Of a stretch of 35,140 nucleotides of DNA, positions 2,898 to 30,740 are shown piece after piece. Under the pieces are notes generated by a model. That model was not told the origin of the DNA. It searched no databases and worked only from the letters and a program-made list of their open reading frames with translations. Source of the stretch: an uncultured Eubacteriales bacterium (GTDB taxonomy: Bacteria; Bacillota; Clostridia; Oscillospirales; Oscillospiraceae); NCBI GenBank assembly GCA_900316205.1, contig ONBX01000031.1, positions 1-35,140 on the forward strand, in the 5' to 3' direction. A program made the position numbers and the translations under genes. Positions within the stretch are counted from its first letter, which is position 1; each line of letters opens with the position of its first letter.

Positions 2898-4262
2898 TCA
2901 GATTCTATCGAGGTCACGAAGACGCTGAACGACTGTATCCGAAAGCTCCTCCATCAGGCCCAGATCCCAGGCCAGCTGATAAACGGTGTACCGGTCACGG
3001 GTCTCCTTGCAGTAGAGGAAGGTATCCTTGAGGATTTCCGGTGTAATACCAATGTCCTTGGGGTCACAGGGGCAGCCCACTTCCAAAAGGATTTCCCGCA
3101 ACTGCTGGGACGGGCAGACATTGTTCAGCAGGGACAGGAGCCGCGGCCACTTCGTCTCTATCCGATCAATCCGCTGTAAGCGACCCTCGGTGCTGTTTTT
3201 CTCCGCGATGGCCTCCAATTCGATAATGGCGTCAGCTGCGCTGCCATAAGCCCGTCGAATCTCTGCCTCCCAGGCGGTTGGATCATAAGCATATGCACAT
3301 TTTCTCGCCCGGTTAAAGTCCGGGGTAATGTTTCGCAGCTCTTCAATCAGCATCAGGGCCAGGACAGTGGCTACCGCTACCTGCTCGCCGTGCATAGCAA
3401 AGTCTTTTCCCCGCTGTTCACCAAGGACCTCCCAATAGTGGGACATGTGGTGCTCTGCCCCAGAAATGGCCCGTGAGCTACCGTAGAGACTGATGGAAGC
3501 ACCGGTGAGAAGCAGCGCGTTCATAATATTGCCGATGGCGGCAGGATCGTGTTTTTTCAATGCGTCCAAATTCTCCAAAATATCATCTACGTAGAAGCTG
3601 ACCAGCTCGTCGATTCGCTTACAGTAGTGGTCGTCATGGATCATTACACTCAGGCGCCAGTCGTTCAGTGCGTTCAGCTTGCCGATCAGATCGCCAAAGC
3701 CGGCGATTGTCATCCGAAAAGGAGCGCCGGCCAGGATGTCCGTATCTCCAAGGATCAGCTCGGTACTGTGGGCAGGCATGGTGGCTTTCAGGTTTTCCAC
3801 ATTCATGATACCCACGGAAGCGGAGAAGCCGTCCATAGGCGCTGCCGTGGCCACAGTAAAGCAGGGCAGACCCAGCTTGAAGCTGGAATAACGCAGCATA
3901 TCCGTGATGGAACCCGTGCCCACGCCGATCATCAGGTCACAGTCATCCGGTCTGTGGATGACGATTTCCCCAAGCGTTGCTTCATCAAAGCCCATATGCC
4001 GTAAAACACGCACCGCAGGTTCAAAGCCCGCTTCGCGGAGCAGTGCTTCACAGCGCTGACCGGCGATCTGATAGGTAGTGGCATCACAAAGGATATAGGG
4101 CCTGTGATAGCCAAAGTCCTTCACGTATTCGGGCAAGGTATTCAGGGCGCCGGGGCCTATGTTCATGGCCTTGATCGGGGCGAAATGCGTGCGGCCGCAG
4201 CTGCATTCCAGCGGGACATTCAGATATTTTTCTACGGGCTGGGGACTTTCATACATCTTCAT
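2898..4262 (-). CDS. sn-glycerol-1-phosphate dehydrogenase-like (AraM/EgsA type) metal-dependent dehydrogenase
   Basis: The 454-residue protein belongs to the iron-containing alcohol dehydrogenase/dehydroquinate synthase fold. The nucleotide-binding GVGTGSITD is at residues 113-121. Likely metal ligands are D191 (FGDLIGK), H271 in GAEHHMSH and H291 in AMHGEQ. The GAEHHMSHYWE and MHGEQVAVAT blocks are typical of the AraM/EgsA group, which reduces dihydroxyacetone phosphate to glycerol-1-phosphate with NAD(P)H. It is longer than usual AraM (about 390-400 residues), mainly at the C-terminus. It is the last gene of operon 1, 16 nt behind the SIS isomerase. In this context it may oxidise or reduce a phosphorylated polyol or ketose freed from a sulfated substrate, so its real substrate may differ from the family's. 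A ribosome site (GAGGG) lies upstream of ATG 4262. Confidence 0.8.
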   Translation of the reverse strand: MKMYESPQPVEKYLNVPLECSCGRTHFAPIKAMNIGPGALNTLPEYVKDFGYHRPYILCDATTYQIAGQRCEALLREAGFEPAVRVLRHMGFDEATLGEIVIHRPDDCDLMIGVGTGSITDMLRYSSFKLGLPCFTVATAAPMDGFSASVGIMNVENLKATMPAHSTELILGDTDILAGAPFRMTIAGFGDLIGKLNALNDWRLSVMIHDDHYCKRIDELVSFYVDDILENLDALKKHDPAAIGNIMNALLLTGASISLYGSSRAISGAEHHMSHYWEVLGEQRGKDFAMHGEQVAVATVLALMLIEELRNITPDFNRARKCAYAYDPTAWEAEIRRAYGSAADAIIELEAIAEKNSTEGRLQRIDRIETKWPRLLSLLNNVCPSQQLREILLEVGCPCDPKDIGITPEILKDTFLYCKETRDRYTVYQLAWDLGLMEELSDTVVQRLRDLDRI

Positions 4263-4278: not shown

Positions 4279-4887
4279 TCATTCTAAATGGTGTAACAGC
4301 CGTTGGCCGACGGCGCCGCCGGGGTGTATTACGGCAAACTGCTCGCGCGTATAGCCGGTCATTTGCATCAGGGCAATGCATATGGCGTCGAAAGTGGCGA
4401 TAACGGCCAGCGTGCTGGCTGTAGCCAGCATGTTGAAACAGCACGGTTCCTGTTCTACTTTGATCTTGAGGTAAAGATCCGCGGCTTTTGCAATAGTGGA
4501 ATCCGGATTTTCGGAAACGCCGATCAACATGGCCCGTTTGCTTTTGCAGGCCGGGATCAGGTTGACTAGCTCCTGGGTATTGCCGTCCTTGCTGATCAGG
4601 ATCAGAATATCCTCCTCCTGAAGTGCGCCAAGGCCGCCGTGTACCGCATCGGAGGGCGTCATAAAAAGGGCGGGGATCTCAATGCAACAAAGGGAGTGCG
4701 CGATTTTTTTCGCGGCCATAGCCGAGGTACCGCAGCCGGAGAGGATGACCTTTCCCTTGCGTGCCATCAAGGCTTTTGCCGTGTCCAAGACGCTGGCTTC
4801 TTCCAATATTTCCGGAAGCCGGCGGATAGATTCCGCCTCTATTTGAATACAGCGATAGATTTTCTCCAGAATTTCTTGATCGGTCAT
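4279..4887 (-). CDS. SIS-domain sugar-phosphate isomerase (KpsF/GutQ-like, no CBS domains)
   Basis: The 202-residue protein is a single SIS (sugar isomerase) domain. It has the phosphosugar loop SGCGTS at 50-55, SKDGNTQEL at 99-107 in place of the usual SxSGxTxE, and the C-terminal HPGGAVGQRLL block typical of arabinose-5-phosphate isomerases KdsD/GutQ. Those enzymes carry two CBS domains after the SIS domain; here they are absent and the chain ends at HHLE, as in short SIS proteins of catabolic operons. The likely role is aldose-ketose isomerisation of a phosphorylated sugar made by the operon's kinase. The start ATG at 4887 follows GGAGGAG by 5 nt. It lies 24 nt behind the ATPase gene and 16 nt ahead of the dehydrogenase gene. 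Confidence 0.78.
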   Translation of the reverse strand: MTDQEILEKIYRCIQIEAESIRRLPEILEEASVLDTAKALMARKGKVILSGCGTSAMAAKKIAHSLCCIEIPALFMTPSDAVHGGLGALQEEDILILISKDGNTQELVNLIPACKSKRAMLIGVSENPDSTIAKAADLYLKIKVEQEPCCFNMLATASTLAVIATFDAICIALMQMTGYTREQFAVIHPGGAVGQRLLHHLE

Positions 4888-4911: not shown

Positions 4912-5652
4912 TTACCACCATTTGATGGCTTCCTCAACATGCGTGCGGATCGCGACAAATTCTTCCGATGCGATATCCCGGGGGCGCGGCAGGTCCAGAT
5001 GCAGGTCCTCTTTGACACTTGAAGGCTTGTTGGAAAGAATCAGTACCCGGTCAGCCAAATAGCAGGCTTCTTCCACGTTATGGGTGATAAAAAGCACCGT
5101 GCTGCCCAACTCTTTCCACAGACGGATGACTTCGTCTTCCAAATAAAATCGGGTTTTGATATCCATCTGTCCATAGGGCTCATCCATTAGCAGCAGATCC
5201 GGCTCCATGGCAAAGGCCCGGCCAATCACCACTTTCTGCTCTGTGCTGACGGAAAGCTCATGGGGATACTGGTTGCGGCACTTGTTCAAGCCCATCAAAT
5301 TGATTATCCTGTCTGTCTGTTCCTTGATTCTGGCCTTTGGCCACCGCTTCAGCGTCATGCCAAATTCGATGTTTTTCTCCACGGTAAGCCATGGCATGGC
5401 AGAGGGTTCCTGAAAAACAAAGGAAAGATTGTGCTTTTTAGGGTTGGCAGGCTCGCCGTCGATCAAAATCTCCCCGGAACTGGGTGGGATCAGGCAGGTG
5501 AGTGTATTCAGAAATGTAGTTTTGCCGCAGCCAGTCGGGCCCACGACGCAGACAAATTCGCCCCGGGCTACATTAAAATTGCAGTTTTTCAGGACCTCGA
5601 GCGAACCGAAATTTTTGCAGAGCTCCCGCACTTCAACCTTGTATTCGTTCAT
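4912..5652 (-). CDS. ABC importer ATPase, subunit with degenerate signature motif (NitT/TauT-type, operon 1)
   Basis: This 246-residue nucleotide-binding subunit energises uptake with the permeases of operon 1. Walker A is GPTGCGKT (residues 38-45), the Q-loop is FQEPS, Walker B LLLMDEP ends in catalytic E158, and the H-loop His is present (FITHN, H191). The ABC signature, normally LSGGQ, is LSVST at 133-137, and the D-loop reads GQMD. It therefore supplies a good Walker side but a poor signature to the dimer, the mirror image of its partner at 5667-6431. It ends in IKWW, as does the matching subunit of operon 2. An ATG at 5670 overlaps the partner's stop, but ATG 5652 is preferred because AAAGGGG lies 8 nt upstream. 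Confidence 0.9.
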   Translation of the reverse strand: MNEYKVEVRELCKNFGSLEVLKNCNFNVARGEFVCVVGPTGCGKTTFLNTLTCLIPPSSGEILIDGEPANPKKHNLSFVFQEPSAMPWLTVEKNIEFGMTLKRWPKARIKEQTDRIINLMGLNKCRNQYPHELSVSTEQKVVIGRAFAMEPDLLLMDEPYGQMDIKTRFYLEDEVIRLWKELGSTVLFITHNVEEACYLADRVLILSNKPSSVKEDLHLDLPRPRDIASEEFVAIRTHVEEAIKWW

Positions 5653-5666
5653 TTCGTCGCCCCTTT

Positions 5667-6431
5667 TCATTCCAGCGCCAGCTCTTCGTTTGACGCGATC
5701 TCCTGCCGAATGCGCAGGAATTCCGGAGACACATGGTTCCTGGGACGCGGCAGACAGCTTAGATCGTATTCCTTTTTCACTTTAGCCGGGCGCTCCGTAA
5801 ACTGAATGATCCGATCACCCAAGGTAACCGCTTCTTCAATGTTGTTCGTCACAAAGATAACTGTGCGCTTCTCAGCCTCCCAGATACGAAGGATTTCCTC
5901 CTCCATGGCATAGCGGGTCTGGGCGTCCAGAGCCCCAAAGGGCTCATCCATCAGCAAAATCTCGGGATTTGCCGAGTAAGCCCGCGCAATGCCGACGCGC
6001 TGCTTCATGCCGCCCGATAATGCGTGTGGGTATGCGTTTTCAAAACCGGTAAGACCTACCAGCTCCAGATACTTCATGGCAGTTTCTCGCCGCGCTGCTT
6101 TGGAGACATTGCGGTACTTGAGACCCAACTCCGTGTTTTCCAGGGCAGTTTTCCAACCGTAAAGGCCGGTCTTCTGAAACACCATGGCAATGCGAGGGTC
6201 GGTGCCGGTGACGGGCTTCCCGTCCAGAAGGATGGTACCGGAGGTGGGCTTGACAAGACCAGCGATGATATCCAGGAAGATTGTTTTGCCGCATTGACCG
6301 GGACCCAGAAGGACCAGAAATTCGTTCTTCCGCACGCTCAGCGTAATGTCCTCAAGCGCGTCGGTATCACCATGCCGGGAGAAAAAGGTTTTAGCGATGT
6401 GGTTGGCTTCCAATATTATTTTCTCTTCCAC
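5667..6431 (-). CDS. ABC importer ATPase, subunit with altered Walker A and H-loop (NitT/TauT-type, operon 1)
   Basis: This is the second ATPase of the operon 1 importer, about 254 residues. The signature LSGGMKQR is intact and Walker B (LLMDEP) has its glutamate. The P-loop reads GPGQCGKT, with Gln where GxxGxGK[ST] has its second Gly, and the H-loop reads VTNN, with Asn in place of the catalytic His. It thus offers a good signature to its partner's ATP site but a weakened Walker side. The closest functional types are SsuB/TauB/NrtD. The open frame begins with a GTG at 6443; GTG 6431 is preferred because AAAGGTGG lies 8 nt upstream. The start overlaps the end of the permease gene, suggesting translational coupling. 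The gene ends 14 nt before the partner ATPase start. Confidence 0.88.
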   Translation of the reverse strand: MEEKIILEANHIAKTFFSRHGDTDALEDITLSVRKNEFLVLLGPGQCGKTIFLDIIAGLVKPTSGTILLDGKPVTGTDPRIAMVFQKTGLYGWKTALENTELGLKYRNVSKAARRETAMKYLELVGLTGFENAYPHALSGGMKQRVGIARAYSANPEILLMDEPFGALDAQTRYAMEEEILRIWEAEKRTVIFVTNNIEEAVTLGDRIIQFTERPAKVKKEYDLSCLPRPRNHVSPEFLRIRQEIASNEELALE

Positions 6432-7213
6432 GGACACAACCACCTTTCAAGGTAATCAAAGCCATAGGCAAACAGCGCGCCAAAGGCGCCAATCATAACC
6501 ATACCGACGATTGACAGCGTCAGATCATTTGCCGAGCTGCCCTGCATGATGAGAAAACCAAGGCCCTCCTTGGCGCCCAGCATCTCAGATGCCAGCAGTA
6601 CCATCCATCCACCGCCCAAGGCTGTGCGGATTCCGGCAAAAATTGCGTCCAGGGAGCTGGGGAGCACGATATCAAACAGCATATCGGTACTCTTGGCGCC
6701 GAAGACCTTGCCTACCTGGAAATTGATCTCCGGGACCATAATTACGCCGGAGTAGGAATTGATGACGATGGGCATAAATACACCCATTGTGATGATGGCG
6801 ACACGGGAAAATTCCTTGGTTCCGAACCAGAGGGTGAACAGAGGGACCCACGCGATGGGTGGGACTGGACGGATTACCTCAAAAAGAGGTTTAAAAATTG
6901 CCCGAAAGGTCTTGTTCCAGCCCATGGCGATGCCAAAGGGCACGCCAACCACAACGGAGAACAGCAGGGCTGTGAGGACGCGGCGCATGGAGATCCACAC
7001 ATGATAGATCATCGGATGCTTTGCCACATTGCCGGACCAGACCGTAATGAGCCGCATCAGGGTTTGATACGGAGATGGGAGGATGGACCGGCCGCTAGCG
7101 GAGACGCTGTTCCACAACAGAAGGAACAGAACGATCAGGATATACGGGCCTGTATAATATGCAATCTTGTAGAGAACGCTACGGTCCTCCAGCAAAGGAT
7201 TTGTTCTTTTCAT
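6416..7213 (-). CDS. ABC importer permease (NitT/TauT/SsuC-type), second permease of operon 1
   Basis: This 265-residue membrane protein has about six hydrophobic helices and a BPD_transp_1 core. The EAA-type loop (VFGAKSTDMLFDIVLPSSL) contacts the ATPases, and the IRPVPPIAWVPL segment is typical of sulfonate/nitrate permeases. It is distinct in sequence from the permease at 7210-8046, so the transporter probably uses a permease heterodimer. The start ATG overlaps the stop of the upstream permease by 4 nt (ATGA), a sign of coupled translation and equal dosage. No substrate can be read from the sequence. Confidence 0.88.
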   Translation of the reverse strand: MKRTNPLLEDRSVLYKIAYYTGPYILIVLFLLLWNSVSASGRSILPSPYQTLMRLITVWSGNVAKHPMIYHVWISMRRVLTALLFSVVVGVPFGIAMGWNKTFRAIFKPLFEVIRPVPPIAWVPLFTLWFGTKEFSRVAIITMGVFMPIVINSYSGVIMVPEINFQVGKVFGAKSTDMLFDIVLPSSLDAIFAGIRTALGGGWMVLLASEMLGAKEGLGFLIMQGSSANDLTLSIVGMVMIGAFGALFAYGFDYLERWLCPWKRK

Positions 7214-8046
7214 GATTTAGGCCTCCATTTTAGGACTACGCTTTCGACGAGGCCGATGATACCCGAAGAAATGAAGCCCAGAATGCCAATGACCAAAATA
7301 CCGGCCATGATCAGAGATACCACGCCGAAGGACCGGCCCATCTGGATCATATAGCCAAGTCCATTGGAGGAGGCAAGCATCTCCGCAGCCACGATGGTTC
7401 CCCAGGCTGACCCCATTGAGGTCTTGAGGCCGGCGAAGATCATGGGCATAGCGGAGGGAATGCCAACCTTCCAGAAGATCTTAAAGTTGCCTGCGCCGCA
7501 GGTTTTCGCCACATGGATCAGCGTCTGATTGGTGGAGCGGATGCCGGTGTATGTATTGAGCACGGTTGCAACGAAGCAGCCGGCGAAAATGATCACAGCC
7601 CGAGCCTGCACGCCGATACCCAGCAGGACAATTACGATGGGGATCCAGGCGAGCCCGGGGACAGGGCGGATGATCTCAAAAAGCGGACGGATAATCCGGT
7701 CACAGATCCCATACCAGCCCATAAACAGGCCCAGCGGGATGCCGATTATGGCCGCCAGAATAAAGCCCAGCCATACGACCTTCGCGCTTGCCCAGATGTG
7801 CTGAAACAGAAGGCCGCCGTCTGGCTTTTTGCTGGATATTTTCGTTATGATGGTTTGAATGATTCCTACAGGAGAATCAAAGAATCTGGTGCTCACCCAA
7901 TGAAAGGAGACAGCGGTCTGCCAGATTGCAAGGACGAAGAGAACAGTAAAAATGCTGATGCCGAGATACTTCACCCGTGTTGTGCGGATCTCCTGCAATT
8001 CGGCGGCGCGGGCCTGTTCTCGGATCACGCTATAGTCTTTTTCCAT
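7210..8046 (-). CDS. ABC importer permease (NitT/TauT/SsuC-type), first permease of operon 1
   Basis: This 278-residue protein has a cytoplasmic N-terminus of about 25 residues, then about six membrane helices. It has the IRPVPGLAWIPI block and the EAA loop (AKTCGAGNFKIFWKVGIP), both typical of SsuC/TauC-like permeases. The start ATG at 8046 follows AGGAG by 8 nt. It lies behind the binding-protein gene, separated by a strong stem-loop, and overlaps the next permease gene by 4 nt. Confidence 0.88.
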   Translation of the reverse strand: MEKDYSVIREQARAAELQEIRTTRVKYLGISIFTVLFVLAIWQTAVSFHWVSTRFFDSPVGIIQTIITKISSKKPDGGLLFQHIWASAKVVWLGFILAAIIGIPLGLFMGWYGICDRIIRPLFEIIRPVPGLAWIPIVIVLLGIGVQARAVIIFAGCFVATVLNTYTGIRSTNQTLIHVAKTCGAGNFKIFWKVGIPSAMPMIFAGLKTSMGSAWGTIVAAEMLASSNGLGYMIQMGRSFGVVSLIMAGILVIGILGFISSGIIGLVESVVLKWRPKS

Positions 8047-8075
8047 AGTATTTGCTCCTGTCGTGCCGGAATGGA

Positions 8076-8102
8076 CCCTTTCCCGGCTGAGCCGGGAAAG
8101 GG
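8076..8102 (-). other. Intercistronic stem-loop between binding protein and permease genes, operon 1
   Basis: A perfect 12-bp stem (8076-8087 with 8091-8102) with a 3-nt loop lies 14 nt beyond the binding-protein stop. There is no T-run. Such hairpins usually protect the upstream message, so that the binding protein is made in excess over the membrane parts. Operon 2 has an unrelated hairpin at the same place (17513-17542). Confidence 0.6.
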
Positions 8103-8116
8103 CTGAAGTGTTGAAA

Positions 8117-9277
8117 TCAGGAATGAAGCTCTTTGTACAGGTCTATGGCCTTGGCCAGATAGCTGCAGTCCACTGCATTGACGACGGTGTCACGGTCAAC
8201 TGCGTCGCGGTTACCGATGGCGACCTGAATGTCAAAGAAGGTGCCGAAGGCGTTTTGCATACCGGTCAGGCCGTTGTCCTGCACCTTGCAGAGGTCTTCA
8301 TAGAAGCTCAGATCCCGGAACTTGGTGAGCTTCTCGGAGGCCATGGCGGCCTCGGGCGTGGTCTCGGTGCCGAATTCTTCCAGCATGACCTCGGAGAACC
8401 ACTCGGCACCCTGCTGCAGGTTTGCGTCATCCGCGCACCAGAGCAGCACTTCCAGCGCGCCCTCCAGATACTTTACGACCACGTCTTCGTTGGCGGCCAG
8501 CCAATCGCCTTCGCAGATGATGTTGCCGGCCATGGCGGCGTCCATGCCTTGCATGGTGTGGCAGACGGTGTAGCTGTCATCCTCTTCCAGAGAGGTGGTA
8601 TAGGTGGAGCTGGCGAAGAACACGTCGCCGGAGCCGGAGATGAAGGCCTGGTAGCCCTTGTCAATATCCATGTTGATGATCTCAACATCGTCTTCCGTTA
8701 GGTCCAGCTTGTCGAGCATAAACATGAAGTCGGCGTCGCAGGCGGTGCCGCGGCCGACCAAAATGGTCAGGCCCTTCCAGTCATCGCCGGTGCCCAGCGT
8801 CTCAGGGATGGGACCCTCAGCGGCCTTGGCCAGAGGGCTGTCGCTGCGACAGAATGCTTTGTTGGAATAATCATAACCGGAGAGGGAGACGACCTTCATG
8901 TTGTAGGTCAGCACACCGGTGATGGCGGCGGGGGCACCGATCCAGCCGATATCCCAGTCGCCGGAGGGGTTGGCCTCCAGCTGGGGGGGGCCGGATACAT
9001 AGTGGGTACGACTTACATTGAGCCCCAACTTCTCCCAGGTGCCCATTTTCTCACCTGCAATCAGAGGTACCGCGGTTTGTACCACGTTCTGACCGCTGGT
9101 GGGCAGGTCAATCATCTCGACCGGAGCAGCGGGACTTTCCGCCTCATCCGCGCCGCCGTCAGCTGCAGAGGCAGCGGGCGCTGCAGTGGCGGCGGGAGTG
9201 TCGGTGCTTGCGCTGCCGCATGCGCATAGCGCAAAGAGCATACACAGAGCAAGCAACATTGCAAGGATTTTCTTCAT
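8117..9277 (-). CDS. ABC importer substrate-binding lipoprotein (NitT/TauT-type), operon 1
   Basis: This 386-residue protein starts with a lipoprotein signal peptide (basic MKK, hydrophobic core, lipobox LCAC with Cys20). A low-complexity Ala/Thr/Pro linker follows, then a periplasmic-binding-protein fold of the NMT1/TauA/SsuA kind: DIGWIGAPAA early, GRGTACDADFMF in the middle. It would capture the substrate outside the membrane and present it to the permeases. Substrate identity cannot be read; the sulfatase in the operon suggests a sulfated small molecule. ATG 9277 follows GGAGGAAAG. It is about 50 nt behind the kinase gene. Confidence 0.88.
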   Translation of the reverse strand: MKKILAMLLALCMLFALCACGSASTDTPAATAAPAASAADGGADEAESPAAPVEMIDLPTSGQNVVQTAVPLIAGEKMGTWEKLGLNVSRTHYVSGPPQLEANPSGDWDIGWIGAPAAITGVLTYNMKVVSLSGYDYSNKAFCRSDSPLAKAAEGPIPETLGTGDDWKGLTILVGRGTACDADFMFMLDKLDLTEDDVEIINMDIDKGYQAFISGSGDVFFASSTYTTSLEEDDSYTVCHTMQGMDAAMAGNIICEGDWLAANEDVVVKYLEGALEVLLWCADDANLQQGAEWFSEVMLEEFGTETTPEAAMASEKLTKFRDLSFYEDLCKVQDNGLTGMQNAFGTFFDIQVAIGNRDAVDRDTVVNAVDCSYLAKAIDLYKELHS

Positions 9278-9326
9278 TTTTTCTTTCCTCCATTTTTATA
9301 TTTTTACGGTATCCCGAATAAAAAAC

Positions 9327-10277
9327 TTATTCAGTCGCTGCGAGCAGCGCGTAATCTGTAAGAAAGCGTTCCCGGATGCGGTCCGTCACAGGGATTCCCG
9401 CGTCCCACATTGCCTCTATCGCAGCGCCATAGACCGGCGGGGCCTGCTGTAGAATCAGCCTGGCGCCGGGAGCGGATTTTTCCCGAATGGCCTCCACATA
9501 CTCGGGGTAGTGGTTAACAATCCCGCCGCCCAGGACCACATCAAACGGACCGGTGAAATACCGCTGGGCTACATAGGTCAAATCTGCCAGAAGAGATGCC
9601 TGGGTGTCGAAGATCTCCCGGCATACCGGATCCCCCATGGCCCGTCCCTGAAATACGGCCTTGGATAGGGAAGCAATGAGCGGCCGTCCGCCGCGATGAA
9701 CGTGGGGAATCACCCCGTCGTCAACGGGCATACCGAGGATATTGGCAAGAAGCTCCGTCAAAACGGTGGGGCCGATGCGCCCATCCACGGAGCGCAGCGC
9801 CATTTTGATGGCGGCCTGCCCCAACTCAAACCCGCTGCCGCCGGTGTCGATCAGATAGCCTTTGCCGCCGATGTGGCGAAGGGGCTGCCCGGCGATCCGA
9901 ATGAACAGAGAAGAGCCGGTGCCGCATACCATGCCGCAGCCATCCTGCCTGCCCAGCGTGCCGGAGATCAGGTTGCAGCCGTCGTCATCGAAGCGGGTAT
10001 GCGCAATTTGGGGAAAACGCTGTTTCACATAAGGGGAGAAAAAATCCCCCTGCGCGATTTCGCCCGCCATACCTCCATAGATTGCCGTTATGGTCTCGGG
10101 CCCCCGGGACAGAAGCTCCTGGATACAGGCACCCAGCCGTGCCAGAGATTCCTCCTGGCCAATGTCGGTGGGGTTGCTGCCGGGACCTACGCTTTGGCAG
10201 AGGATATGCCCATCCTCATCAAACAGCACCAGATCCGTTTTGGTTCCGCCACCGTCAGCCGCTATACAATACTTCAT
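9327..10277 (-). CDS. BadF/BadG-type sugar kinase (N-acetylglucosamine kinase-like), operon 1
   Basis: This 316-residue ASKHA-fold protein has the phosphate-1 loop ADGGGTKTD at residues 7-15, a GTGSSLFIR block, and a GGSGFELG block in the adenosine region. Length and motifs fit PF01869 kinases such as eukaryotic and bacterial GlcNAc kinase, not the benzoyl-CoA reductase activators, which carry Fe-S Cys motifs. The likely role is ATP phosphorylation of a (possibly amino) sugar or polyol after desulfation. ATG 10277 has GAGGAG 5 nt upstream. It lies between the sulfatase and binding-protein genes. A paralogue opens operon 2 (18672-19706). Confidence 0.8.
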   Translation of the reverse strand: MKYCIAADGGGTKTDLVLFDEDGHILCQSVGPGSNPTDIGQEESLARLGACIQELLSRGPETITAIYGGMAGEIAQGDFFSPYVKQRFPQIAHTRFDDDGCNLISGTLGRQDGCGMVCGTGSSLFIRIAGQPLRHIGGKGYLIDTGGSGFELGQAAIKMALRSVDGRIGPTVLTELLANILGMPVDDGVIPHVHRGGRPLIASLSKAVFQGRAMGDPVCREIFDTQASLLADLTYVAQRYFTGPFDVVLGGGIVNHYPEYVEAIREKSAPGARLILQQAPPVYGAAIEAMWDAGIPVTDRIRERFLTDYALLAATE

Positions 10278-10303
10278 ACTGTCTCCTCAATTTTGCGCGG
10301 CCT

Positions 10304-11725
10304 TCAGGTCAGGTCGATCTTATACTCGGAAGGGATTGCGGCCAGTTCTTCCTCATGAAGATAGGTGTGATCCATTCGTCCGGGATAGTGCGGGTGCGTT
10401 TTGGTGTATACCTCATACGTCACACTTTCGTGGGACTTGTTGCAGTCGCTGCTTCTGTAGGCGTCCAGCTTTTGCTTCAGCGCCGTGACCACGGGATTTG
10501 CCGGATCATAGTGGTTTCGAATTTCCGGGACTGAGTCGAAGAAATAGTATGCGTCTGTCTTGGCCAGATAGACGAGCTTGTTTTTTCCATCGGTGACCAT
10601 ATAGGAGCCGCAGGCCCCGCAGCCGTGCTGCGAGTATACCAGATCCCGGTCATAGTCTGAGAACAGGTCAACGCCATCAAAATCCGCAGGATTGTAGTCG
10701 ATACCGGCATAATGCAGAAGTGTCGGCGCAATATCCACAAGGGAGCAGGGCGCATCTCTGCGCGCAGGCGCCGCGCCGGGGTACTTGATCATGAGTGGGA
10801 TGTGGCAGGAGGAATCCACCATGGTCCGCTTTCCGATGGCGTTAAAGTCGCCCATCATATCGCCGTGGTCGCTGGAGAAGAGGATCAGCGTGTCCTCGTA
10901 CATCCCTTTGTCTTTGAGCGCCTGAATGATTCTTCCAATCTGATAGTCTACGAAGGATACGCAGGCGTAATAGAAATTCTTGGTGCGGAGGATATCCTGA
11001 CGGCTGGTTTGCAGACGGTCCAGTGAGCAGCGCTCACCGATCATCGCCTGGAACGTGTCCAGATCCTCCGGCGCAGGGCAATAGGGCTCCGGGGGATCCT
11101 CACGGTAAAGCTTCTGCCAGGGAGCAGGAGGCGAATAGGGCGGATGCGGATGTATAAAAGAAGACACAAGCAACATGGGTTTGCAGGAATCGAATGAGCG
11201 GATATACTCGATGCTCCGGTCACCGACCCACTGCGTTGGATGATCCTCCGGCGGCAATTGAGAGATTTGCGGGATATAGTACATCTCGCTGCGCATACCG
11301 TTGTAGTCAAACACCCAGGGATACTTCCCGCGGATGTACTCCATATAGCCGTCCCCAGGCGCGGCCAGCTCCTCCTGGGAGTGCCGCTTTTCAAAGCCGA
11401 GGGAGCCATAAGGATCCCAGAGATGATGCATCTTTCCGACGCAGCAGCTGTGGTAGCCGCCAGCGGTGATCTGGGAATAGAAGCCGTCGGCGACGCCCGC
11501 GCGTTCGGTATTGTTGTTATTGCAGCCTGTGCGGGCCGGATACTGACCGGTAAAAAGGGAGTAACGGGCCGGCACGCAGACAGGGGAGGGGGTAAAACAA
11601 TGGCCGAACACCACAGAATCCGAAGCCAACGCGTCCAGGTTTGGCGTCTGGATATGTCGGTTCCCCAAAGCGGAGATGGTATCATAGCGCTGTTGGTCAG
11701 TAAAAAGGATTAGAATATGTTTCAT
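10304..11725 (-). CDS. Cytoplasmic Cys-type sulfatase, first gene of operon 1
   Basis: This 473-residue alkaline-phosphatase-superfamily protein has metal-ligand residues near the start (FTDQQR) and the sulfatase signature CVPAR at residues 50-54, followed by a typical TGQYPARTG. Its central SSDHGDMMGD carries further metal ligands. Cys50 is the residue turned into formylglycine. Because it is Cys rather than Ser it could be matured by the anSME enzyme at 21913-23004 (established for both Cys and Ser types). There is no signal peptide, so it should act inside the cell on imported sulfate esters. The open frame extends to 11770, but ATG 11725 has GGAG 10 nt upstream and fits the family N-terminus. 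The exact substrate is unknown; choline-sulfatase-like and sugar sulfatases share these features. Confidence 0.87.
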   Translation of the reverse strand: MKHILILFTDQQRYDTISALGNRHIQTPNLDALASDSVVFGHCFTPSPVCVPARYSLFTGQYPARTGCNNNNTERAGVADGFYSQITAGGYHSCCVGKMHHLWDPYGSLGFEKRHSQEELAAPGDGYMEYIRGKYPWVFDYNGMRSEMYYIPQISQLPPEDHPTQWVGDRSIEYIRSFDSCKPMLLVSSFIHPHPPYSPPAPWQKLYREDPPEPYCPAPEDLDTFQAMIGERCSLDRLQTSRQDILRTKNFYYACVSFVDYQIGRIIQALKDKGMYEDTLILFSSDHGDMMGDFNAIGKRTMVDSSCHIPLMIKYPGAAPARRDAPCSLVDIAPTLLHYAGIDYNPADFDGVDLFSDYDRDLVYSQHGCGACGSYMVTDGKNKLVYLAKTDAYYFFDSVPEIRNHYDPANPVVTALKQKLDAYRSSDCNKSHESVTYEVYTKTHPHYPGRMDHTYLHEEELAAIPSEYKIDLT

Positions 11726-11783
11726 GGACTGGGCACTCCAAATCATTAAAATGGCGAGAGGGCGAACCATGTTTCGAAAAACT

Positions 11784-11802
11784 TATAAAACGAAAGTTTA
11801 TC
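11784..11802. promoter_or_regulatory. DeoR-type operator candidate, site 1
   Basis: TATAAAACGAAAGTTTATC carries the core AAACGAAA flanked by A/T arms. It lies just downstream of the expected start of the minus-strand sulfatase operon. It resembles sites 2 and 3 upstream of the regulator gene, and the TTTCGTTT type of site known for AgaR/DeoR-family regulators. Confidence 0.5.
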
Positions 11803-11827
11803 ATTTTGTTTCGGAATATGGTATTAT

Positions 11828-11855
11828 ATTATAATAAAGCCCCATGCTTTGTCAA
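11828..11855 (-). promoter_or_regulatory. Promoter of operon 1
   Basis: On the minus strand a perfect TTGACA (11855-11850) is followed after 16 nt by a perfect TATAAT (11833-11828). A second TATAAT overlaps it at 11828-11823. The expected transcript starts near 11820 and runs into operator site 1 before the sulfatase gene. Confidence 0.7.
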
Positions 11856-11944
11856 ATATCACTTTTCATAAAAATGCAAAGATGATTTCGGCCATTTTGC
11901 CGAAGCTGAGACAAGGAAGTGGAGCGGTCAGAAAGTATAGCTTA

Positions 11945-11973
11945 TTGACTTTTTATGAAACGAAACTTATAAT
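11945..11973 (+). promoter_or_regulatory. Promoter of the deoR-type gene with operator site 2 between -35 and -10
   Basis: TTGACT (11945-11950), 17 nt, then a perfect TATAAT (11968-11973). The spacer holds operator site 2, TTATGAAACGAAACTTATAA (11953-11972). A related site 3 (core AAACGAAAG) lies at 11983-12000. The placement predicts autorepression. Confidence 0.6.
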
Positions 11974-12009
11974 TTCACATATGATAGATAAACGAAAGTG
12001 GTGAGCTGC

Positions 12010-12762
12010 GTGGGGAGAAACATACACGAGAGGCGAAAGGAAATCCTATCGCTGGTAAATCAATGCGGCACGCTGGATTTTACACAATTGCGGGAACGGT
12101 TTCCGGATGTGTCTGATGTTACGCTTCGGAAGGATCTGCAGTACTTGGATGAGACCCATCAAGCAATGCGGACCCATGGCGGCATCAAATCGATTCCGTC
12201 GGCACTAAACTATTATTACCGCTCCAATGTCAACCAAGACAAAAAGCGGACAATTGCCCGAAAGGCAACGGAATTGATCCATCCCGGAGACTCCATCTTC
12301 ATTTCCGCTGGTACGACCTGCGCGGAATTGGCCAGGTGTTTGCCGGCCTTTCCTGTCAGGGTTTGCAGCGATGGCGTATACACAGTCAGCAGCATGGCCA
12401 ACCTCCCCAATATTTCCGTTGAGCTTCTGGGCGGGGATGTGGATCTGAACATTATGCGTGTGGAGGGCATTGCCGCGCTTAACAATCTGGAAGGGAAATA
12501 TTTTTCCACGGCGTTCATGAGCGCCATGTGCGTGCACCCCGATTACGGCTTTGCGCATAATACCGCAATGACAGTGGCGATCCTGGAAAAAGTGATTGAG
12601 CATTCGGATAAGGTTGTACTTCTGGCAGACACCACCAAGTTCTTTAATACCTTTTTCCCCTATTCCATTCCGATTACCTCCGTGGATGTAATTGTCACAG
12701 ATGAGATCCCACCGGATGAGATTGTTGCCTGCTATGAGGAAAAAGGAATCACGATTATATAG
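12010..12762 (+). CDS. DeoR-family transcriptional regulator
   Basis: This 250-residue regulator has an N-terminal winged helix (ERRKEILSLVNQ, then the recognition helix around VSDVTLRKDLQYL) and a C-terminal DeoRC sensor fold (ISAGTTCAELA, ADTTKF) that usually binds a phosphorylated sugar. It sits between the two catabolic operons and is divergent from operon 1, whose promoter carries a similar operator, so it is the probable repressor or switch of both. The start is uncertain: GTG occurs at 11998, 12001 and 12010. GTG 12010 is preferred because it leaves the operator untranslated and has GGTGAG upstream. Confidence 0.85.
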   Translation: MGRNIHERRKEILSLVNQCGTLDFTQLRERFPDVSDVTLRKDLQYLDETHQAMRTHGGIKSIPSALNYYYRSNVNQDKKRTIARKATELIHPGDSIFISAGTTCAELARCLPAFPVRVCSDGVYTVSSMANLPNISVELLGGDVDLNIMRVEGIAALNNLEGKYFSTAFMSAMCVHPDYGFAHNTAMTVAILEKVIEHSDKVVLLADTTKFFNTFFPYSIPITSVDVIVTDEIPPDEIVACYEEKGITII

Positions 12763-12796
12763 AGCATAAAGAAACAGGCACCGGATAAGGAAAAGA

Positions 12797-12831
12797 TGTT
12801 GTCTCTGTAGAAACGGAGACAACACCTTTTT
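12797..12831. terminator. Bidirectional intrinsic terminator between convergent genes
   Basis: A 12-bp stem (12797-12808 with 12813-12824, one G-U) with an AGAA loop is followed by a T-run on the plus strand and preceded by an A-rich run serving the minus strand. It separates the deoR-type gene from the convergent sulfatase gene. Confidence 0.8.
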
Positions 12832-12853
12832 GTTTTGCTCCGCAGCCAGATGG

Positions 12854-14359
12854 TTAAAGTTGAGGAGCCGTTACCTTTTTGGACATCCAGTCATTGATCT
12901 GGTTTTTCATATTGACGCCCTTGGGCCCGGGAACGCCGTGAACCTCGGCGGCCTCATACTGGCGGTACTGCTGCCAGTACAAACGGCCGAATTCGTTGGA
13001 CTCTTCCTGCCACTCCTCCCGGTACTCGGCCATCCTGCCGCGCAACTTTTCCACCAGAGGGGCGGTTCCCGCCGTCCCGGCCAGGTTGTTCTTTTCCCAG
13101 GGATCCTGGTTGAGATCAAAAAGCTGGGTGAGCTTTAGCTGCTCGGAGCGGTATTCCAGGAGCTTGAACCCATGGCTGATCACGCCCCGTATTCTGGCCT
13201 GGAAAACCAGATAGAGATCCTCTCTTGTTACATACGCCGGATTCTGGAACATACCGGCAAAGCTCTTCCCGTCTACGCTGCCCGGGATGGGAATGTCGCA
13301 GAGTTCGCAAAGGGTGGGATAAATATCCAGCAGATACACATAGCCGTTGATCCGTTGACCCGCGGGTATCCCAGGACCGCACATGACGAGCGGGAGCTTG
13401 ATGCTGTGTTCATACAGATTCTGCTTGCCCATCAGTCCGTGCTGACCCACCGCCAGGCCGTTGTCGCCGGTGAACACGATGATGGTATCCTCCAATAGGC
13501 CTTTTTGCTCCAGCGCGTCCAGAATCTTGCCGATCTGCGCGTCGATATGGCTGATCATGGCATAGTAATCCGCTATGTGCCGGCGGATCTTTTCCGGCTT
13601 TCTCGGGTAGGCCTCGGTGGTTTCGTCCCGGCCATTGGCATTCCAGCCGTAATCAAAGGAAGGCATCTCCTGAAAATTCGGCGGTAAAGTGATGGCCGCG
13701 GGGTCGTACATGTTCCGGTATTCCTCCGGCATGGTCCTGGGGTCATGCGGTGCCAGAAAGGATACATACATGAAAAACGGGGCATCCCCGCTATAGTCAT
13801 GGATGAACTTGATCGCAGAGTCTGAGAACAGGTTTGTGGAGTGCTTTCCGGCGTGAATCCGGTCGGCGATGACCTTTACCGGCTCCATATTGGCGGAAAA
13901 ATTGGGAGTGAAATTAATCAGATTGTCGTAAACACCGTCTTCTCTGAAGTCACTGACCGGCACGTTCCAGTGATCCCACATGCCGCCAAAGAAGATGTTT
14001 TCACCGGAGTCAAAGCTCCGGGCAAAGCTCTCAGTCCCGTTATGCCATTTCCCGGTTTCAAAGCAGTGATAGCCGCCTGCGCGGAAAGCCTGCCCCATGG
14101 TCACATGCTCTTTGGGGATGTCTTTACCGCAGGCATCCAGATAGAAGATGTACTTTCCGGAGTTGATCATGGCCCGACTGGGCATGCAGACGGCAGAGGT
14201 GGTACCGCCGGGAATATAGGTATTCATGAACGAGGTACCGCGTTCTACCAGCCGGTCCATATTGGGCGTAATGACCTCCTCATTGCCCAGCGCATGGATG
14301 GTACCATAGCGCTGGTCATCGGTCAGAAGAAATAGGACATTAGGTCTCTTTTTTTTCAT
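12854..14359 (-). CDS. Cytoplasmic Cys-type sulfatase, last gene of operon 2
   Basis: This 501-residue sulfatase has the N-terminal metal ligands LLTDDQR (residues 11-17) and the signature CMPSR at 58-62 (Cys58 is the formylglycine precursor). Its C-terminal catalytic block FTGDNGLAVGQHGLMGK contains Asp/Asn metal ligands and a catalytic Lys. There is no signal peptide, so the enzyme should be cytoplasmic. It differs clearly in sequence from the operon 1 sulfatase, so a different sulfated substrate is likely. ATG 14359 has AGGAGG 6 nt upstream. It follows the ATPase gene by 22 nt. In operon 1 the sulfatase is first, here it is last: the same parts in a different order. Confidence 0.88.
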   Translation of the reverse strand: MKKKRPNVLFLLTDDQRYGTIHALGNEEVITPNMDRLVERGTSFMNTYIPGGTTSAVCMPSRAMINSGKYIFYLDACGKDIPKEHVTMGQAFRAGGYHCFETGKWHNGTESFARSFDSGENIFFGGMWDHWNVPVSDFREDGVYDNLINFTPNFSANMEPVKVIADRIHAGKHSTNLFSDSAIKFIHDYSGDAPFFMYVSFLAPHDPRTMPEEYRNMYDPAAITLPPNFQEMPSFDYGWNANGRDETTEAYPRKPEKIRRHIADYYAMISHIDAQIGKILDALEQKGLLEDTIIVFTGDNGLAVGQHGLMGKQNLYEHSIKLPLVMCGPGIPAGQRINGYVYLLDIYPTLCELCDIPIPGSVDGKSFAGMFQNPAYVTREDLYLVFQARIRGVISHGFKLLEYRSEQLKLTQLFDLNQDPWEKNNLAGTAGTAPLVEKLRGRMAEYREEWQEESNEFGRLYWQQYRQYEAAEVHGVPGPKGVNMKNQINDWMSKKVTAPQL

Positions 14360-14381
14360 CGCTGCCTCCTGTAACCATTGT

Positions 14382-15128
14382 TTACCACCATTTGATGAGA
14401 TCCGTCACCCGGTTGCGGAGCGCTACGAATTCCGGATCCGATACCTTGCGGGGACGGGGAAGATCGTTGATGATGTTCTCTTTGACCTTTGTGGGCTTGT
14501 TGGTCAGCACCAGGATCCGGTCACTGAGATATACGGCCTCTTCAATGTTGTGGGTAATGAAAATGACCGTTGTTCCCGTGTTTTTCCACAGGCTGATCAG
14601 CTCGTCCTCCAGATGGTATTTCAGCTGCAGATCCAGCTGCCCGTAGGGCTCGTCCATTAAGAGCAGGTCGGGTTCCACAGCAAAGGCTCTTGCAATGACT
14701 ACGCGCTGCAGCATGGAGGCGGAAAGCTGGCTGGGATAGTATTTGGCATAATCCGTCAGGCCGACGATCTTCATGACCTTTTGCACCCGCTCATCCGCCA
14801 CGTCTTTGGGAAAATGCTTGATTTTGAGACCGTAACGGATATTATCCTCCACGGTCAGCCATTCCATCGTGGAGTATTCCTGGAAAATATAGGCGATGTC
14901 ATGCTTTTTCGGATCGATCTCCTCACCCTGCAGGGTAATGGATCCGGCGTCAATATCATACAACCGGCACAGGCTGTTCAGAAAGGTGGTCTTCCCGCAG
15001 CCGGTAGGCCCTACGATGCAGAGAAACTCACCCTCCTGAACATCGAAAGAGATATCGTCCAGCACCAGCAGATCACCGAAGCTTTTGGTTAGGTTTTTTA
15101 CAGATACTTTGACTTTGTTTTCGGCCAT
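14382..15128 (-). CDS. ABC importer ATPase, subunit with degenerate signature motif (operon 2)
   Basis: This 248-residue ATPase is orthologous in position and motif pattern to 4912-5652. Walker A GPTGCGKT (40-47) is normal, Walker B LLLMDEP has E160 and the H-loop His is present (FITHN, H193). The ABC signature is LSASM (135-139) instead of LSGGQ/M, and the D-loop reads GQLD. It ends in IKWW like its operon 1 counterpart. ATG 15128 is preferred over 15134 because AAGGAGG then lies 9 nt upstream, instead of 3. It forms the importer with 15143-15907 and the two permeases. Confidence 0.9.
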   Translation of the reverse strand: MAENKVKVSVKNLTKSFGDLLVLDDISFDVQEGEFLCIVGPTGCGKTTFLNSLCRLYDIDAGSITLQGEEIDPKKHDIAYIFQEYSTMEWLTVEDNIRYGLKIKHFPKDVADERVQKVMKIVGLTDYAKYYPSQLSASMLQRVVIARAFAVEPDLLLMDEPYGQLDLQLKYHLEDELISLWKNTGTTVIFITHNIEEAVYLSDRILVLTNKPTKVKENIINDLPRPRKVSDPEFVALRNRVTDLIKWW

Positions 15129-15142
15129 GCCCATACGCCTCC

Positions 15143-15907
15143 TTACAGGGTCTTATCCATCTCATCCGTGATCTTCTCGCGCAACGCGAGAAAATCGGGA
15201 GCGGTGTAGTCGCGCGGCCGGGGAAAATCGACCTTATACTCCTTGTGGACGCTGGTTGGACAATTATGCAGGAGGATAATGCGGTCGGCCAGATATATGG
15301 CCTCTTCCACATTGTTTGTCACAAAGAGCACCGTGCGTTTTTCCGCGTGGGTGATCCGATCCACATCGGCCTCCATCAGATACCGGGTCTGCGCATCCAG
15401 GTGGCCGAAAGGCTCATCCATACAAATGATCTTCGGTTCGTTGGCATAGGCGCGGGCGATGCCAACGCGCTGCTGCATGCCGCCGGAGAGCTTTACGGGA
15501 TAATGCTTCTCAAAGCCGGTGAGGCCCACAAGATCAATATATTTCTGCGCGATCTCACGCCGCTTTTTCCGGGGCACGTGGCGCACCGAGGGGCCAAACT
15601 CCACGTTTTGCATGACGGTTTCCCACATGAAAAGATTGGTGGTTTGATAGACCATGCCGCGATTGGGGGATGGACCAACGACGGGTTCACCATCCACAAT
15701 GATCTTCCCCTTCGTGGGCAGCTCCAGGCCGGCAATCAGGTTGAGAATGGTAGATTTCCCGCATTGGCCGGGACCGAACAGGACCACGAACTCATTCTCA
15801 TATACATTAAAACTCAGGTCATCCACGACCAAATGGTCGCCGGCAAGACTATAGAACGTTTTGCTGACGTGGTCGCAGCTAATGATTGGATTTTTTGTTT
15901 CCGCCAT
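15143..15907 (-). CDS. ABC importer ATPase, subunit with altered Walker A and H-loop (operon 2)
   Basis: This 254-residue ATPase is the counterpart of 5667-6431. The signature LSGGMQQR (140-147) is intact and Walker B has its glutamate (CMDEP, E165). The P-loop is GPGQCGKS with Gln48 in place of Gly, and the H-loop has Asn198 (FVTNN) in place of His. ATG 15907 overlaps the permease stop (TGATG), pointing to coupled translation; longer in-frame starts lie inside the permease gene and lack ribosome sites. It probably pairs with 14382-15128. Confidence 0.9.
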   Translation of the reverse strand: MAETKNPIISCDHVSKTFYSLAGDHLVVDDLSFNVYENEFVVLFGPGQCGKSTILNLIAGLELPTKGKIIVDGEPVVGPSPNRGMVYQTTNLFMWETVMQNVEFGPSVRHVPRKKRREIAQKYIDLVGLTGFEKHYPVKLSGGMQQRVGIARAYANEPKIICMDEPFGHLDAQTRYLMEADVDRITHAEKRTVLFVTNNVEEAIYLADRIILLHNCPTSVHKEYKVDFPRPRDYTAPDFLALREKITDEMDKTL

Positions 15908-16692
15908 CAGGATCCACGCTCCCTCCATTGACACAACACCTTTTCCAGCCATCGCATCAGGACAGCCATTAACAGCCCGACTACCGCTATGGCGATAATG
16001 CCGACAAAGATTTGAACCATGTCGCCGTTTTCCTGACCGGAAGTGATTGTCCAGCCAATGCCAGCGGTGGAACTGACCATCTCTGCGGCGAGCACGGCCA
16101 TCCAGCAGGTGGACAGGCCCACCTGCATCCCGGCAAAAATATAGGGAACACAGGAGGGGATAACAACCCGAAAGAAGGCCTGCAGCTTACTGGCACCCAG
16201 CATGTATGCCGCGCCCAGAACATTTTCATCTACCTGCTTTGCGCCGGCAAAGGTGTTAACGGTAATGTTGACAAAACCAGCCATGAAGATGATATAGAAT
16301 TTCGCGTTCTCTCCGATGCCAAACCAGACGATTGCCAGCGGAATCCAGGCAACGGAGGGGATAGGACGCACGATCTCAAAAATCGGACGAAAGATTGCCT
16401 CGATCATTTTGAAGCGGCCCATGCTGATTCCGAGAATGATGCCGGCAACAGAGGCCGCGGCGAAACCGATGAGAACTCGCTTAAGGGAGATCAAAAGGTG
16501 TCCGAAGACGGTATATTTCTTACCAATGGTGTGAGAGCACACATAGGCAAAGCGTTTTACGACTTCCCAGGGGCTGGGAAGCAGAAGGCCGATCCGGGTA
16601 TAGCGTACAGCCAGCGCCCAGATGATGATCACGGCGCCGATGCCAAGCAGGGAAAGCGCCAATGTGCCAAGCCGCTTACTAAGGTTTTTCAT
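15907..16692 (-). CDS. ABC importer permease (NitT/TauT/SsuC-type), second permease of operon 2
   Basis: This 261-residue protein has about six membrane helices, the IVRPIPSVAWIPLAIVWFG block and the EAA loop (AYMLGASKLQAFFRVVIPS) that docks to the ATPases. Its ATG overlaps the preceding permease stop by 4 nt, and its TGA overlaps the following ATPase ATG. It is more like the second permease of operon 1 than like its own partner, as expected if a whole two-permease, two-ATPase importer was duplicated. Confidence 0.88.
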   Translation of the reverse strand: MKNLSKRLGTLALSLLGIGAVIIIWALAVRYTRIGLLLPSPWEVVKRFAYVCSHTIGKKYTVFGHLLISLKRVLIGFAAASVAGIILGISMGRFKMIEAIFRPIFEIVRPIPSVAWIPLAIVWFGIGENAKFYIIFMAGFVNITVNTFAGAKQVDENVLGAAYMLGASKLQAFFRVVIPSCVPYIFAGMQVGLSTCWMAVLAAEMVSSTAGIGWTITSGQENGDMVQIFVGIIAIAVVGLLMAVLMRWLEKVLCQWRERGS

Positions 16693-17495
16693 CGCTCCTT
16701 TCCTCCTCTGACAAATAATTTCTCCAAGAGGTCAAAAAGGAAGGAGATCACTATTCCAATCAGACCAAGGCACAGAATACCAACGATGATCAGATCGGAC
16801 CGAAGCAGCGCGCGCCCAACGGAGATCATGTATCCCAGGCCTTTTGTGGAGGCCAGAAGCTCGGCCGCTACCAGCGCCATCCAGGAGGAGCCCATTGCCA
16901 CGCGAAGTCCCGCAAAAATCATAGGCATGGCAGAGGGGATCGCAATGGTAAACAGCTGTTGGCGGCGGCTGGCGCCGAAGGTCTGTGCGACCCAGAGATG
17001 GATTGACTTGGTCTGTTTTATTCCTGAATAAGAATTGAGAATGCAGGGAATTACGGTCGAGAAAAAGATCAGAACCGCTTTCGCTTTGATCGTAATGCCG
17101 AGAAGGACGATCATGACGGGAATCAGCGCAATAGGGGGAATGGGCTTAAGGAAGTCAAAAACCGGACGAACGATAATATCAACCCACTTGTGCCAGGCCA
17201 TCAGAATTCCCAGGGGTACGCCGATAACAACACCCAACACGTATCCGGTGAATGCGACCTGCAGGCTCGCGAGAAAATGCTGGCCAAGAGTTGCGCCCTC
17301 AGGCGCGGTTTTGGTCAACTTGGTGATAAAGGTCTGGAAAACCTTTACGGGGCTTGGCAGAGAGTAAGACGGTGCCAGCTGAAGTACGGCTGTTGCCAAA
17401 TACCAGATACCGATAAAGACAAGGATAGAGCACAGGGAAATGAGCCTGTACTGAAGTCTCCGCTTTCGGGCGGTGTTTTGAAGCTTTTCATCCAT
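16689..17495 (-). CDS. ABC importer permease (NitT/TauT/SsuC-type), first permease of operon 2
   Basis: This 268-residue protein has a positively charged N-terminus (RKRRLQYR) and then about six membrane helices. It has FLKPIPPIALIPV in the family's conserved loop and the EAA segment (AQTFGASRRQQLFTIAIPSAMP). ATG 17495 has AAGAGGG 8 nt upstream. It is the counterpart of 7210-8046; both lie directly behind a binding-protein gene with a hairpin between. Confidence 0.88.
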   Translation of the reverse strand: MDEKLQNTARKRRLQYRLISLCSILVFIGIWYLATAVLQLAPSYSLPSPVKVFQTFITKLTKTAPEGATLGQHFLASLQVAFTGYVLGVVIGVPLGILMAWHKWVDIIVRPVFDFLKPIPPIALIPVMIVLLGITIKAKAVLIFFSTVIPCILNSYSGIKQTKSIHLWVAQTFGASRRQQLFTIAIPSAMPMIFAGLRVAMGSSWMALVAAELLASTKGLGYMISVGRALLRSDLIIVGILCLGLIGIVISFLFDLLEKLFVRGGKER

Positions 17496-19706: not shown

Positions 19707-19788
19707 GTTCAAACCAACCAAACCCGCAAACAAATTTTATGAAATACGCACAAACAATGAAAAAAATTTCGGATTCTCTTCACAAGAA

Positions 19789-19860: not shown

Positions 19861-19878
19861 CATAGATAAATATCTATG
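19861..19878. promoter_or_regulatory. Perfect 18-bp palindrome in the LysR-type gene leader
   Basis: CATAGATAAATATCTATG is an 8-bp inverted repeat around AA. It directly follows the -10 box and overlaps the expected transcription start, about 25 nt before the start codon. It is probably an operator. Confidence 0.5.
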
Positions 19879-19902
19879 CTAAAAATGCAGGAGGAGTATA
19901 AC

Positions 19903-20999: not shown

Positions 21000-21115
21000 G
21001 CCAAACGACAGGCTGGGCAGCAAAATGATTTTTTCGATTATTTGCGCGATGCTCATTGCAATGAGGAACACATTCCCGGAAGTGTTTCGGATGCTGGATG
21101 AAGGAGGGGTTATTT

Positions 21116-21904: not shown

Positions 21905-21912
21905 AGGAACGA

Positions 21913-27178: not shown

Positions 27179-27281
27179 CTATCTTGGATAATCCATTGAT
27201 TGATAAAAAATCTTATACTATGGTGAGATATCCGCACGCGAATCCATACTTGTAGGGCGAGGCGGAAAGGAAGTGACGCGA

Positions 27282-30648: not shown

Positions 30649-30740
30649 GTCATGTTACAATAAAAAAGATTTTCCGAAATCCTGTAAGATTTGCTCCTCC
30701 ATCCCGTGATATAGGGTGAGGCGGAAAGGAAGTGACGCGA

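Follow-up and report, generated by a model that had tools for sequence, protein, structure and literature searches.

Paired ATPases with complementary motifs in a clade of NitT/TauT-type importers

In ATP-binding cassette (ABC) transporters, each bound ATP is enclosed by the Walker side of one ATPase subunit and the signature motif of the other (excerpt of PMC7756269), and arguments about what a degenerate ATP site does have come almost wholly from exporters and channels. Among importers, the nearest solved ATPases to those described here by sequence belong to NrtBCD and CmpBCD, which likewise combine two different ATPase subunits with a receptor of SsuA/NrtA-type fold; in printed alignments, however, their ATPases all carry GHSGCGKS, [LI]SGGM and VTHD or ITHD, so that both of their sites are consensus, whereas the second site of the clade reported here is degenerate. 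The E. coli SsuABC and TauABC systems share the receptor fold and permease similarity with this clade, but their loci encode one ATPase and one permease each, with canonical motifs, in contrast to two of each in the clade. Its two operons analyzed here, A and B, lie on the minus strand, together with all four of their ATPase genes, in a DNA stretch of 35,140 nucleotides from an uncultured Eubacteriales bacterium (contig ONBX01000031.1 of assembly GCA_900316205.1; hereafter the window).

Complementary motifs and the composite ATP sites

In each operon, one ATPase (class 1) keeps its Walker A (GPTGCGKT) and H-loop His (FITHN) and has a broken signature of the form LSxSx, namely LSASM in operon A (14382-15134, minus strand) and LSVST in operon B (4912-5670, minus strand). 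The other (class 2) keeps LSGGM, with Gln replacing a Walker A Gly and Asn replacing the H-loop His (FVTNN), the P-loop reading GPGQCGKS in operon A (15143-15952, minus strand, with starts in frame at both 15952 and 15907) and GPGQCGKT in operon B (5667-6443, minus strand). The four proteins have 250-269 residues and an intact Walker B Glu (MDEP), and class 2 still has the Walker A Lys and Ser/Thr as well as the Walker B Asp-Glu. D-loops differ by class, being YGQLD (operon A) and YGQMD (operon B) in class 1 versus FGHLD or FGALD in class 2. An initial annotation made from the sequence alone had read these motifs correctly, and its start at 15907 is in frame; the plus-strand frames at the same coordinates are not the ATPases.

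Placed face to face, the class-1 Walker side and the class-2 LSGGM form a canonical composite site (site 1), and the class-2 Walker side, with its P-loop Gln and H-loop Asn, forms with the class-1 LSxSx a degenerate one (site 2). A fully canonical site is possible only in a class-1/class-2 dimer, either homodimer having two impaired sites; because of this, and of the strict co-occurrence of the two genes, the ATPases would be expected to assemble as heterodimers. The reading that we favor, with a probability of about 0.65, is that operons of this kind encode heterotetrameric importers of the NitT/TauT group whose duplicated ATPases are complementary, with one hydrolytic and one degenerate site, and whose cargo is an organosulfur compound.

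The generality of the split was assessed over homologous loci. A class-2-led search of species genomes yielded 80 loci, the best 80 of 158 relatives. Because this search, with GPGQCGK in one of its six patterns, is biased towards that motif, further searches were led by class 1 only, blind to the partner, in samples of 391 (class), 300 (family) and 398 (phylum) genomes, each including the source genome. The 80 loci, the class-1-led loci and one more, the two of the window counted, amount to 106 two-gene loci, or 103 distinct pairs after removal of the duplicates L143, L135 and L137. In 101 of these 103 pairs (100 by motif script, plus L027, a read-through open reading frame (ORF) that passed separately), every departure in Walker A, signature or H-loop is confined to a single composite site, as the initial annotation had stated for the window, where chance mutation can thus be dismissed. 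The one deviating pair, L042, has class-1 GPTVCGKT and sits on a 3.2-kb contig, and is the only case found when defects scattered over both sites were looked for; in L071 the class-1 P-loop is not readable, which leaves that pair outside the 101. Partnerless homologs were likewise sought and none was found except at a contig end (L063). In 77 of the 80 loci the genes run receptor, permease, permease, class 2, class 1, whereas L042, L063 and L072 are truncated where their contigs end. The two ATPase genes are separate in the window and in all 103 pairs; in five of the loci found from class 1 (L154-L158), which make up a third operon type, C, class 1 stands ahead of the receptor and class 2 closes the cluster on the other side, with ~2.8 kb between the two, and both are retained.

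The class-1-led searches gave 348-467 bits for members and 260-275 bits for the best non-members, and recovered 23 foreign class-1 genes (6, 10 and 7 in the class, family and phylum samples), each accompanied in its locus by a class 2. These 23 partners all have Q, H, R or Y at Walker A position 4, and an H-loop Asn in 22 cases or Ser in one. Over the 103 pairs, class-2 Walker A position 4 is Q in 98, H in 3, R in 1 and Y in 1, and the H-loop residue is N in 102 and S in 1; signature position 4 of class 1 is Ser in 102/102 readable proteins. The Walker B Glu is present in 103/103 class-2 and 102/102 readable class-1 proteins. The claim of a fully consensus other site is correct as regards Walker A, signature, H-loop and Walker B but not as regards the D-loops, which depart from the Ala of relatives: Gln is invariant in class 1 (102/102 readable, Ala in the sampled relatives), and class 2 has His in 69, Ala in 22, Gln in 11 and Ser in 1 of 103.

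The nearest non-redundant proteins, being best matches and therefore a measure of conservation rather than universality, carry GPTGCGKT, LSxSM and FITHN in 119/119 cases for class 1; the P-loop Gln is found in 119/120 (FVTNN in 118) for class 2 of operon A and in 118/119 (FVTNN in 119/119) for class 2 of operon B. The exception in the operon A set is P0088, a metagenomic protein of 448 residues with a P-loop Arg for Gln, in which a class 2 truncated at the C-terminal side is continued in frame by a class 1 that is almost whole. A deletion or an assembly fault is likely, the alternative being a natural single-chain pair; its alignment places both classes on one half. Class 1 also ends in a conserved IKWW/IRWW (window 4912-4935 and 14382-14405, minus strand), absent from class 2, and LI[KR]WW occurs in all 119 nearest class-1 proteins.

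Canonical motifs were found in 28/28 sampled relatives outside the clade (26 ATPases from 25 Clostridia loci, plus E. coli TauB and SsuB); ten ABC ATPases of other families in the fetched loci were left out, some with unusual motifs (MSWGQ in L008, variants in L079 and L083). Together with the joint change of three motifs on one site only, and with the location of signature position 4, which is that of CFTR G551S and G551D, changes impairing gating, this consensus makes it unlikely that both sites hydrolyze ATP and that the changes are tolerated variants in a pump working like the usual SsuB/TauB importer. Such a pump would be consistent with the intact catalytic Glu on both sides, and an H-loop Asn can be tolerated in ABCC1 (excerpt of PMC7756269).

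Ancestry and retention of the split

The phylogeny of the ATPases, reconstructed from 28 class-1, 28 class-2 and 16 relative rows after removal of the motif columns and without TauB and SsuB, shows all class-1 rows as one clade (support 100/100) and all class-2 rows as another (100/98), the two jointly apart from the 16 sampled relatives (96/93), with A, B and C sub-branches mirrored between the two halves. The expectation that the two motif classes form separate clades, encoded together with two permeases, is thus borne out. Because each class is a single clade with mirrored sub-branches, this topology indicates one split event, which preceded the divergence of the A and B operon types and was inherited by both window operons, rather than the independent occurrence in each operon initially claimed. 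The window therefore holds one A-type and one B-type copy, whose inheritance is old; given this common origin, the 101 cases document conservation and not 101 independent events.

Forcing class 1 and class 2 of one operon type into a clade was strongly rejected, both for A (log-likelihood loss 160.7, approximately unbiased (AU) test p 3.6e-64) and for B (log-likelihood loss 195.5, AU p 2.1e-48). Convergent degeneration of operons A and B, which could find some support in their identity of only ~53-54% in either ATPase, is accordingly highly improbable, each class being one clade across operon types. Class-1 and class-2 distances are correlated (Mantel r 0.877 over 94 pairs, L071 and L027 not included; null maximum 0.27 in 999), and the permeases form two clades in a quick tree with a long-branch warning in the outgroup, so that all four subunits of the membrane complex appear as fixed, distinct partners. 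The quick tree of the ATPases had 31+31+28 rows, including two long outgroup rows. A recent tandem duplication of the operon in the source genome was also considered and is unlikely, as each copy is closer to relatives elsewhere than to its neighbor. The B-type pair L141 and L142 is divergent, with an ISAS signature in class 1 and, in class 2, either GPSQCGK or GPGQCGK together with LITNS; the class-2 stem branch is long.

The clade spreads over Bacillota and Spirochaetota. The residues that replace the consensus are conserved although their codons vary, the H-loop Asn being written AAC in 48 and AAT in 33 cases and the P-loop Gln CAG in 57 and CAA in 24; the class-1 signature Ser uses both codon families (AGY 72, TCN 8). 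Because the replacement residues are themselves conserved, the sequences lead us to conclude that the degenerate site is maintained and not decaying. Pseudogenizing ATPases drifting in one lineage could explain why some positions vary among members, such as the Q, H, R or Y of the P-loop, but open frames, the wide spread and conservation in the face of varied codons leave this with hardly any plausibility.

A further reading is that site 2 is regulatory or ligand-sensing and that its reshaped P-loop, by binding nucleotide or some other ligand, controls the gating of the pump instead of idling. The altered residues are conserved rather than random, the Walker A Lys and Ser/Thr and the Walker B Asp-Glu remain, and the class-1 D-loop Gln is invariant, all of which would fit such a role; no extra regulatory domain is seen, however, in ATPases of ~250 residues, and we regard this explanation as improbable relative to the importer with one hydrolytic and one degenerate site.

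Gene context and predicted cargo

In operon A, in gene order on the minus strand, a BadF-family, NagK-like kinase scoring below cut-off (18672-19733) and a substrate-binding lipoprotein (17582-18640) precede the permeases of the 'up' (16689-17495) and 'dn' (15907-16692) clades, assigned from NCBIfam models and the permease tree; a CxPSR-type sulfatase (12854-14359) directly follows class 1. An AlphaFold2 model of the lipoprotein (predicted local distance difference test score, pLDDT, 89.9) is nearest to SsuA and TauA, closely followed by CmpA and NrtA. On the plus strand lie a divergent LysR-type regulator (19876-20871), a member of the TauE/SafE sulfite-exporter family (21098-21904) and an anaerobic sulfatase maturase above the TIGR03942 cut-off (21901-23004).

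Operon B, also on the minus strand, opens with a PF00884 sulfatase with a CxPAR-type active site (10304-11770, likely start ~11725), followed by a NagK-like BadF-family kinase below cut-off (9327-10277), a substrate-binding lipoprotein with a weak SsuA-family match (8117-9277; 39 bits versus a cut-off of 163.5), the 'up' permease (7210-8046; NCBIfam models and permease tree) and the 'dn' permease (6416-7213; TauC/SaoP/NtrB-like). After class 1 come a SIS-domain protein, KpsF/GutQ-like (4279-4887, minus strand), and a glycerol-1-phosphate-dehydrogenase-like protein (2898-4262, minus strand).

Context gene calls with our own hidden Markov models (E 1e-10 or 1e-30) placed sulfatase-family ORFs in 68/80 A-type loci, starting at most 300 bp from class 1 in 47 of the 73 loci with at least 4 kb downstream, a maturase in 21/80 and TauE in 20/80. 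Of 102 sulfatase ORFs, 90 have an active site that reads CxP[SA]R or resembles CTPAR. By a crude test for leaders at ORF ends, the start lies at most 25 residues from the fold in 54 of these 102 ORFs and later in 40, and 8 are unclear; the window's two sulfatases and the 54 starting near the fold suggest that the enzymes are cytoplasmic.

For the B type, some neighbors were inspected in six loci. TauE is found in L127, L128 and L138, transketolase halves in L128, and a hydroxyisobutyrate-dehydrogenase-like protein in L127 and L138; L131 has a class II aldolase and triosephosphate isomerase, and lactate-racemase-like proteins occur in L131 and L139. Enzymes of these kinds suit sulfonate breakdown, which is why sulfonate is proposed among the B-type cargoes. 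Overall, this context makes an organic sulfate ester or sulfonate the likely cargo, and we propose sulfate esters for type A and sulfonates or sulfate esters for type B; the imported compound would then be processed by the associated sulfatases or sulfonate enzymes. The clade may thus point to a route, widespread in the gut, by which bacteria take up sulfonates and organic sulfate esters.

Elsewhere in the window, an rve-type integrase-core transposase (23788-25341) adjoins the sulfatase maturase, and a YhcG/DUF1016 family protein with a PDDEXK nuclease domain lies at 26089-27135. At 27273-28903 and again at 30732-32380, a sigma-factor-like gene precedes one for a membrane-anchored protein that is of DUF4179 type or unassigned, an arrangement like that of paired sigma/anti-sigma modules. 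The ORF at 44-2266 has an AAA_14/DUF4143 second part and an unrelated first part, a possible fusion of two genes.

Mechanism and comparison with known transporters

Relatedness of the ATPases to the NitT/TauT group is apparent from their best PDB matches (CmpC/D and NrtC/D) and their top NCBIfam matches (SaoA, TauB and NtrCD), and the receptors are of SsuA/TauA/NrtA type. All four permeases match the TauC, SaoP and NtrB models, each below the equivalog cut-off, and all four ATPases, among the best 25 of 182 families, fall below every cut-off, TauB, SsuB, NtrCD and SaoA included. SaoA (NF040729) ranks first or second among the NCBIfam matches of each of the four, yet they score 199-229 bits against a cut-off of 360. 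Judged from these matches and the phylogeny, the clade is a NitT/TauT-type importer, kin to SsuB, TauB and NrtCD, and a distinct subfamily, as the initial annotation supposed; neither a description of it nor the strings GPGQCGK and LSASMLQR were found in open-licence PMC literature.

The complex would consist of two different permeases, one ATPase of each class and one lipoprotein receptor, and may have arisen when a single ATPase gene was duplicated and the copies became complementary. Site 1 would hydrolyze ATP in each cycle, and site 2 would bind ATP with slow or no hydrolysis and thereby stop the ATPase pair from disengaging fully between cycles, a role that has been proposed in TM287/288. 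In that exporter, asymmetric D-loops and a nucleotide at the degenerate site hold the ATPase domains in contact (excerpt of PMC5216877), and by analogy a similar clamp may operate here. For MRP1, sequence differences in the stretch from the second to the third Gly of Walker A are reported to affect ATP binding or hydrolysis (excerpt of PMC10246721), and this is the same stretch that is altered in class 2.

Among importers, E. coli DppBCDF holds one nucleotide on DppF when the receptor is absent (excerpt of PMC12136057), an asymmetry distinct from the motif split described here. NrtC and CmpC, with 665-690 residues, have a C-terminal regulatory domain that the clade's ATPases lack. Degenerate sites are well established in exporters, but the initial framing of such a site as an exporter trait was overstated, as the B. 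subtilis type II importers RbsA and NupO also have one (excerpt of PMC11466899). This clade is therefore a further variant of one-degenerate-site importers; in the RbsA and NupO of that excerpt the ATPase domains are fused and the second is devoid of the Walker A Lys, whereas here the genes are separate and the Lys is kept.

The clade provides an importer that depends on a receptor and whose asymmetry is fixed, of old origin and present across many gut bacteria, and its canonical close relatives (TauB, SsuB and NrtCD) allow a comparison by which the role of a non-hydrolyzing site in an importer becomes testable. Only tentatively, we suggest a clade-wide importer with one hydrolytic site, whose rebuilt second site would be a conserved clamp or sensor joining the ATPases, a type I solution reached independently of exporters and of RbsA. 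The clade resembles TM287/288-type exporters in having complementary motifs that make one site consensus and the other degenerate, and in asymmetric D-loops, but differs from them in being a receptor-bearing importer and in keeping on both sides the catalytic Glu, the lack of which has been named a hallmark of degenerate sites (excerpt of PMC7544095).

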